In this document: in pieces, positions 36,901-39,900 of the stretch
Position numbering within the stretch: position 1 is the stretch's first letter
Layout of the letters: each line of letters begins with the position of its first letter
Assembly (NCBI RefSeq): GCF_032854445.1
Contig: NC_088301.1
Location: forward strand, 2,606,001-2,670,000
Reading direction: 5' to 3'
DNA: 64,000 nucleotides
Origin: Liolophura sinensis
Taxonomy: Eukaryota; Mollusca; Polyplacophora; Chitonida; Chitonidae
Translations under genes and position numbers: made by a program
Notes under the pieces: model-generated
Told to the model about the DNA's origin: nothing
Database searches by the model: none
The model's input: only the letters and a program-made list of their open reading frames with translations

Positions 36901-39900
36901 GGAACTATTCCAACTGTACTCTCATAAAGGAATGTTTTTCCACTGTTTATATTGCTGAGGTTTTGAATTTGTTTCAGGATAAAGAATAAAGTGTACAAAA
37001 ATGGAGCTCTGGATGTGATCTGCTTCTTGTTCCTTTTTACCTAGGATCTAAAACTAGAAATATTAAGTTACATGTTCTGTAGAATCTAAAAGCATAAAAT
37101 AAAACTTGGTTATTAACCTTTACAATGGACAGCTACTCCCCCATCAGCTAGCTCTGACAATTCCAAAAACTGCCGAACTATACTGTCGCTGGGAACACTA
37201 CCATCCGTGAAGAACAAGTCGTAGTGGTCAAAGCCCGCGTCTGTGAAGCGCTTGGCATCATAAATCTTCTTATTGAGACGAACAATGGTGGTGACGTTGT
37301 GTTTCCTGAAGTAAGGGAAGTAAGCCTCGGGTGCATGGAGCGGATAACCTGTTGGATAACAAGTATTCATGGATAATCAAACATATATTTAAGTCCATAT
37401 CTTTGAACTGTAAGACAAAAAAGAGAAAAAAAAATATTCACACATTCAGATGTGAAATTACACCCATAGTTTGCACGTTCATCAAAACAAAAACAAAAAA
37501 AATTACATCATCAAAATAAATTATCTTCCTTTCTTCCCCAATATTCAGCCAAAAGCCAAAAATGTCCAATTAAAACAATTTTTCGATTTAATCCCAAATT
37601 ATCGAACTCAAATGTACACAACAAATTAAGATGCATTTGGCTATGGGTATGGTTTAGAAAACCAGATATGCATGGATCTATGTATGGATATCTATGTATG
37701 GAGAAACATGTGAAAAGGGATGAGGCATGCACGTGAACGTGTACATTGATTCATCTTCAGCCTACCACTCATACCGCTCACCTGATTGATGTAAGCTCTG
37801 TCGCAACAAATCAGTACTTTTTGTGATACCAAACAGATTTTGCAGCACAAAGCATATACAGATAAGATTTGCAACCCCAAATTACAAAGCCATAATGAAG
37901 CAATTGCAGGAATATACTTGGAAAAAGCTGAGCACATACCACATACAGCACATAAAAACTACAGCAATGTGAGAAGGCCATTGAGCAAATGGACATGTAT
38001 CAGTGCTTAATGTCCCTTAATATGCTTGACAGTTACAAGTTTTACATACAACTGGAATAAAAACCAATTGTTAACTTTATAAAAAGCAAGAATGGCCAAA
38101 AATGATCATACTGAATTGGACAAAAACACAACTGAAACCAGCAGTTCTAATGTGAATGCATTTTACACACACTGATGCATTATCCTTCTCCAATCAATGG
38201 GTCAGTATTTTATCCAGCCAACGCCACACATAAGAAGGAAGCCAAAGGTGACAAGAACAGCCATGCACACCCTATTACCCATGTCAATCTTGCTCTTGGG
38301 GTGTGGGCCACTAAAGGCCATCAGTTTGCCTGGTACTATCCAGTTTAAATCCCCATTTTCTACACACTGTCAAAAAGGAGAGACAAGAAGGCCTGTGGGT
38401 ATTAGTGCATTGCTAACCAACATAAGAATAACATGCTTTCAAAACCATTCGTGATGGAGAGGGATAAGGCAGAACATGTTTATAAAATGGTCAAATGCCT
38501 AAAATAACCAGTAGGGATAACAAGTTCTTGTAGAGGATTTGATTTCAAAATTGTGTGTGTTTCAACCAGGGCCATACTTAAAAAAAAAAACATTAAATGT
38601 TCTGATCCCAAACTTTAATGGTGACATTGTGATTGTGCTTAAATAAATTTTCAAAATGCAACTCAAAATGATGCTTTCTAAGAGCTTTTAACTCTATGAA
38701 TTAAAAGAAATTTGTATGAAAACTAAACTTTTTATAGTAAACCATCACATATTTGTTTAATTTATGTCTTGGTTTTAATAAAGCTTATTTAGGTTGGGCG
38801 GGGAACAGTTTCGGAGTCCAAACGTTTTCAGGAACCAAAGAGACTCTAGATGTGGCCCTGTCAATACAAACTTGTGCACTGCCCCATGTGATCTCCATCA
38901 CGACTGGGTGAACTGGAAAATCCAGAACATCGTAACATGCATAAATTCTAACTAAGTATTTCACATTCTAAAACAATGCATGCCTATCCGAATGTCATAC
39001 CATTATCTATCCTTGTTTTTGGATGAGGTCCACAAAATGCCAGAAATTTATTAGGAATAATCCAGTTGAAGTCACCATTTTCTACTTTCTGCAATAAGAA
39101 CACAGCCATTAAATACATTCTCACATCAGTGCACTTGTGGGTGGAAGACATCAGTGTTTTTGCAAAAATTACAATCACACAGTAGATCCCTGGAATCTAA
39201 ACACACCTTCATTAAACTCACATTTAGATGTGTATATACATACATGTATATGCACATAACACTAGTAGTGAGCAACAATTTGTTCAAATATCATCCTTAA
39301 TAAAAATTCTACTGAAAGTCAAAACTTGATTGGTTTGTAGAACTGCCACATGTATGTGAAGGTCACTGCACAGACCAGGCTATAAAAGTGTGTCAAATTT
39401 ATGCAGTACAAGTACAAATGGGAAGTTTAATTGTTGTCATCACTTTGATGGATTATCATCACTTCTACAGCTACTTGTACCTTGTATGTAGCACTCTTCT
39501 CTGCAGAAACATGCATATGTATGTCACATGATCCATTACTTACCTCATAATGCTCATACTCATCCACATCAAACGTGTCAAAGTTGAAGAAGCCATTCGC
39601 CAAGGCCTGTTACAAATACACCCAATGGAGGACATTATAAGACACACACATCAGCATTCACAACTCTAAAGTGCCACTCCTCAAAAAAATTTTTTTGTAA
39701 ATGTTAACTAAAACAAAGAAATATAAAGCATGTACACAAGGATCACAGGGACACAATAAAGCACATTGCTAGATACTATGGTGACGATGTATGTCTTCAC
39801 TCTGTCTTTACTATGTTGTTACATGTAACAGCCATACCTATACTCTTACTTCCACTTGTAATGTTAAATATTTGATTATTCTTTGATTGCTATTTTGTAG

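Follow-up and report, generated by a model that had tools for sequence, protein, structure and literature searches.

Two versions of one exon in a chiton CDC14 phosphatase gene: an old tandem duplication with probable mutually exclusive splicing

Introduction

Can one CDC14 phosphatase gene produce two forms of its catalytic domain by choosing between two neighbouring exons? The question is raised by a stretch of 64,000 nucleotides of contig NC_088301.1 from the chiton Liolophura sinensis (hereafter the window; all coordinates are positions within it), whose CDC14 gene lies on the minus strand and contains two similar exons, 8a and 8b. A preliminary description of this DNA had proposed that the two are duplicates, used in an either-or manner. 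According to our in silico analysis, the pair is very probably an old tandem exon duplication that is spliced mutually exclusively, where we infer from the sequence both the use of the two exons in transcripts and the strictness of the exclusion. One gene can thereby probably make two versions of the CDC14 catalytic domain.

The species of this assembly, published as Liolophura japonica (PMC11068029), was renamed L. sinensis in a correction (PMC12441733), and RNA-seq from five tissues exists for it (digestive gland, foot and gill, SAMN35319765 to SAMN35319767, as well as gonad and heart; PMC11068029). Genome-wide searches reported here covered 609,464,459 bases in 632 contigs.

Results

On the minus strand, exon 8a (39001..39088) and exon 8b (38279..38366) are both 88 nucleotides long, and both enter in phase 0 and leave in phase 1. 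Each has an intact AG on its 5' side and an intact GT on its 3' side (8a, acceptor ttcttattgcag, donor gtatga; 8b, acceptor cctttttgacag, donor gtaata), and is open in frame 0 only. These boundaries and phases are those first proposed for the pair, and the separating intron (38367..39000) measures the 634 nucleotides that had been claimed. One junction had to be put right: the splice from 39544 into 8a had been given as ending at 39001, whereas the correct acceptor end is 39088. Constant exon 7 (39544..39606, donor gtaagt) lies upstream of the pair and constant exon 9 (37118..37348) downstream.

The peptides encoded by 8a and 8b agree at 19 of 29 residues, a figure already put forward and returned by our recount. 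At the codon level, 7 positions are identical, 12 carry synonymous changes and 10 carry replacements. When the 8b peptide was searched against the whole genome, it matched in two places only, at 8b itself (E 2.2e-15) and at 8a (E 7.6e-9, 69% over 29 residues), so the resemblance is not due to chance. Comparison of ten exon peptides (exons 2 to 7, 8a, 8b, 9 and 10) with the window gave mutual matches for 8a and 8b alone. The sole other extra match, 14 residues of exon 2 on the plus strand (E = 0.064), looks like chance. As expected, the DNA pattern of exon 8 had no match in viral and prokaryote contigs.

Our reading of the four possible junction orders showed that 7-8a-9 and 7-8b-9 read through in frame, and that inclusion of both exons (7-8a-8b-9) or of neither (7-9) runs into early stops, the stop after joint inclusion lying inside 8b. 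The claim that using both or neither would break the frame was thus borne out. These stops fit with either-or use without proving strict exclusivity. In the scheme that we propose, exon 7 would be joined to either 8a or 8b, and the chosen exon would then be joined to exon 9. Because 8a and 8b share their phases, each choice would yield a full catalytic domain. Products with two exons or none would shift frame, meet an early stop and end in nonsense-mediated decay or as dead protein.

The gene itself is a CDC14 phosphatase gene, with predicted phosphoSer-Pro phosphatase activity. It spans the minus strand from about 48.8 kb down to at least 33.7 kb, and exons 2 to 7, 8a, 8b, 9 and 10 were all located with AG/GT splice sites. 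Exons 2 (48733..48823), 3 (48545..48620) and 4 (45430..45522) belong to the DSPn domain; they are followed by exon 5 (45002..45081), whose final two bases were assigned by reading the sequence, and by exon 6 (40121..40187), for which splice sites were placed. Exon 9 carries the catalytic His-Cys (VAVHCK) and exon 10 (36040..36178) completes the HCX5R motif, the two joined exons encoding HCKAGLGR. The closest solved structures to the spliced protein, in either version, are human CDC14A (9rib) and CDC14B (1ohc), and human CDC14A aligns with the whole of a 160-residue piece (302-306 bits) whichever exon is used. The DSPn domain, the HCX5R motif and these best matches all agree with the earlier naming of the gene as CDC14. 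The number in "exon 8" is a label only, six coding exons (2 to 7) having been placed upstream. In a genome-wide profile search, PF14671 (DSPn) scored above its cut-off in three exon regions, every one inside this gene. As the matches are confined to it, a single CDC14 gene was found, a count in which weak exons elsewhere in the genome could escape detection.

Further downstream in the gene, the stretch 33710..33751 (minus strand) encodes a peptide resembling the SLiCE peptide of human CDC14, TQGDKLRALKSQR (PMC11407943), which that paper describes as highly conserved across vertebrates. Among the four residues mutated there, the chiton keeps Q, L and K, and R is replaced by N. The likeness of the encoded peptide suggests that the SLiCE motif is older than vertebrates.

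We then asked how long the two exons have been apart. Nucleotide differences between 8a and 8b number 6, 5 and 19 at codon positions 1, 2 and 3, respectively (P = 0.0007 for at least 19 of the 30 differences at position 3). Synonymous sites are saturated: NG86 returned -1, and the maximum-likelihood estimate of 28 carries no meaning. The region was also split into an upstream half, made up of intron 7, 8a and part of the following intron, and a downstream half. Between these halves the exons matched (E 6.5e-6) and nothing outside them matched below E 0.14. As the exons are alike while their flanking introns have no clear similarity, the duplication is old.

Both copies have stayed under coding selection since this duplication, with similar constraint. 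Had one of them drifted freely during half of the third-position separation, no more than 11 changes among the 58 sites at codon positions 1 and 2 would be expected with P = 3e-6. Identity to human CDC14A is 22/29 for 8a and 23/29 for 8b, and 67-96% for seven constant exons (exon 5 was left out of this comparison). Identity to human CDC14B is 18/29 for 8a and 14/29 for 8b, the latter slightly below the lowest of six constant exons (50-92%). Relaxed constraint in one copy had been named beforehand as the sign that would tell against the proposal; measured by identity to CDC14A, neither copy looks relaxed. Codon-position differences, free-drift test and CDC14A identities thus agree with the long selection on both copies that had been claimed.

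According to the alignment, exon 8 corresponds to residues 210-238 of CDC14B plus the first base of codon 239, with a numbering offset set from the catalytic cysteine, which we take to be C314. The swapped segment runs from the end of the linker into the first part of the catalytic domain. Constant exon 7 holds the residues aligned to what we take, in name and role, to be linker residues E206 and E209 of CDC14B. The HCX5R motif lies in constant exons 9 and 10, outside the swap. Splice choice would exchange about 30 residues and leave the catalytic motif unchanged. The ten replacements between 8a and 8b (K/C, F/L, I/V, N/G, F/L, L/M, C/S, T/S, R/K and N/M) are in many cases conservative. With mostly conservative replacements and a constant catalytic motif, we infer that the swap is more likely to bring a mild change in domain contacts, substrate docking or location than a change of chemistry.

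How the two exons might exclude one another was examined in several ways. Incompatible U2 and U12 sites can be set aside: no U12-like donor is present among the donors of exons 7, 8a, 8b and 9, as judged by what we take to be the U12 consensus. Whole-intron duplex energies of intron 7 with the two later introns were matched or bettered by 30/30 and 18/30 shuffles, and those of the two later introns together by 9/30. This design was poor, and local pairing with 100 shuffles was used instead. In this second analysis, the 8a-8b intron and the 8b-9 intron can form a stem of 12 pairs out of 13 around exon 8b, between 38455..38467 and 38180..38192 on the minus strand (positions read from the sequence). 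Its score was reached by 1 of 100 shuffles, for one of three intron pairs tested. We treat this stem, which would loop out 8b, as a candidate and a lead only.

The hexamer TGCATG, presumably an RBFOX-type motif, occurs four times in 37349..39543 (chance about 0.026 per 35 nucleotides), once shortly 3' of the 8b donor (38262..38267, minus strand). It is also found 3' of the donors of exon 7 (39515) and of 8a (38941), and so does not single out 8b. We suppose that tissue-specific splicing factors would set the choice of exon and that nonsense-mediated decay would remove mistakes.

Elsewhere in the window, three long single open frames (3685..4140 on the minus strand, 13617..14585 on the plus strand and 16560..17408 on the minus strand) contain a membrane-spanning stretch that looks similar by eye. 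The first has only Pfam matches below cut-off (RCR, E 0.0012; ISK_Channel, E 0.0075), the second only PspB (E 0.044) and the third none. An NCBIfam search of the neighbouring open frames gave nothing useful. The three frames may encode KCNE-like channel subunits and form a small cluster, an unproven assignment. Short peptide units recur throughout open frames at 17519..20027 and 62800..63690 (plus strand), which have the appearance of tandem-repeat arrays.

In the rest of the genome, COX1 was found in seven copies (one partial) about 15.5 kb apart on contig C99, and in one copy on contig C632. The series on C99 is a chain of mitochondrial genomes, probably produced by the assembly. With genes named from their translations and rrnL by Rfam, the order reads cox1-cox2-atp6, then on the other strand nad5-nad4-nad4L-cob-nad6-nad1-rrnL, then cox3-nad3-nad2. 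We take this to be the order of the chiton/phoronid/abalone type.

Discussion

If splicing runs as proposed, the chiton CDC14 pair would be a new member of the mutually exclusive tandem duplicated exons. A survey of human exons of this class gives a mean identity of 49.1% for the human pairs that one of its passages treats (PMC5740500), so that the 66% of the chiton pair is within the usual kind. The FYN exon substitution event and its SRC-family paralogs, as described in PMC9741552, likewise involve homologous adjacent exons used singly, which encode a linker and the first part of the catalytic domain. For FYN, however, which is a kinase, both the transcripts and differences in binding are known, and the chiton gene encodes a phosphatase. 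Exons 4a and 4b of the enzyme gene OGDH also form a mutually exclusive pair of ancient origin, but their exclusion is attributed to a short intron (PMC7969005), unlike the 634 nucleotides of the chiton gene. A term look-up did not find CDC14 in the main texts of the two exon surveys (PMC9741552 and PMC5740500), and no mutually exclusive or duplicated exon pair of CDC14 appeared in the titles or abstract starts of the papers listed by our searches of an open-access library.

Some of our observations weigh against mutually exclusive use of the two exons. Steric exclusion by a short intron, the simple mechanism, is unlikely at 634 nucleotides. Local pairing of intron 7 with the two later introns was equalled by 90/100 and 50/100 shuffles, so that neither pairing stands above the shuffles. 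A short free period would weaken the free-drift test (P = 0.04 for a quarter of the separation and 0.16 for a fifth). The donor of 8b looks weaker, and 8b has four residues (C, L, M and M at positions 1, 15, 16 and 29) absent from 8a, CDC14A and CDC14B; on account of these two features, 8b could be a minor form.

A different account concerns the age of the pair and is compatible with either-or splicing. The pair could be older than the protostome-deuterostome split, CDC14A having kept the 8b type and CDC14B the 8a type after the vertebrate gene duplication. We see this as possible, though clearly not the favoured origin. The tree joining 8a with CDC14B and 8b with CDC14A has a likelihood 7.4 log units above that of a chiton-only duplication (LG model, four sequences, 30 sites; resampling of estimated log-likelihoods, RELL, 0.94). 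This gap was reached in 0/200 simulations under the chiton-only tree and in 128/200 under the ancient-pair tree. At CDC14B positions 220, 228 and 235, 8a and CDC14B have I, C and R, where 8b and CDC14A have V, S and K; at position 216, however, the match runs the opposite way. The three supporting sites are conservative swaps, prone to recurrence, which the LG simulation understates. Moreover, the likelihood tree rests on four sequences only, and the method recovers the chiton-only tree in just 93/200 simulations made under that tree. The approximately unbiased (AU) test leaves the chiton-only tree unrejected (P = 0.063), and of the five parsimony-informative sites three support the ancient-pair tree, with one each for the chiton-only and the third tree (P = 0.21). 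As a control, CDC14B-like states are no different in 8a (4/12) and in the constant exons (10/50; P = 0.44).

A partition of exon versions between vertebrate paralogs has precedents, since PMC9741552 describes such splits for FYN relatives and for CACNA1F/CACNA1S. In the FYN system the vertebrate paralogs each retained one version (PMC9741552), whereas the partition between CDC14A and CDC14B is a lead only. That a bilaterian-age either-or switch existed, and that in vertebrates two genes took the place of the splicing choice, CDC14A being of the 8b type and CDC14B of the 8a type, is a tentative idea to which we give slightly less credit than to the old origin itself.

Less probable is that one exon, more likely 8b, is regulatory or minor. 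Inclusion of 8a and 8b together would then shift the frame and send the transcript to decay, so that CDC14 levels fall, and the protein version of that exon would be little used. The stop that joint inclusion produces in 8b fits this idea, as does the weaker-looking 8b donor. There is also a human parallel: according to PMC10132239, CDC14B is under regulated splicing too, being tuned by exons 13 and 14, exon 13 with a premature stop, repressed by Matrin3. Those exons, however, are not a homologous pair. Furthermore, a pure poison exon need not retain 23/29 CDC14A residues, a bias towards position 3 and a reading frame that is open and correctly phased, and the pyrimidine tract at the acceptor is richer in 8b (0.82) than in 8a (0.65). 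We consider a regulatory exon unlikely.

It is more improbable still that the second exon has become a dead copy that is being lost. The four residues peculiar to 8b would suit such a copy, but its frame, its length and both its splice sites are intact and its codon-position bias persists. In addition, its identity to CDC14A is not below that of 8a and falls inside the range of the constant exons, and free drift over half the separation is contradicted by the test given above. An assembly or haplotype artefact can practically be dismissed, given residues that are 66% identical, synonymous sites that are saturated, the lack of clear similarity beyond the exons, the absence of any N in the window and a duplicated unit that is exon-sized with its own splice sites.

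An old exon duplication with mutually exclusive splicing thus remains the reading that we prefer. The exchange of about 30 residues where the catalytic domain begins would be a natural swap with the remainder of the protein constant, which makes this segment worth testing. If the pair is as old as the split between protostomes and deuterostomes, it would link splicing in an invertebrate with the vertebrate split into CDC14A and CDC14B. Should vertebrates indeed have replaced the splicing choice by two genes, the exon chosen in a chiton tissue would show which human paralog's job runs there.
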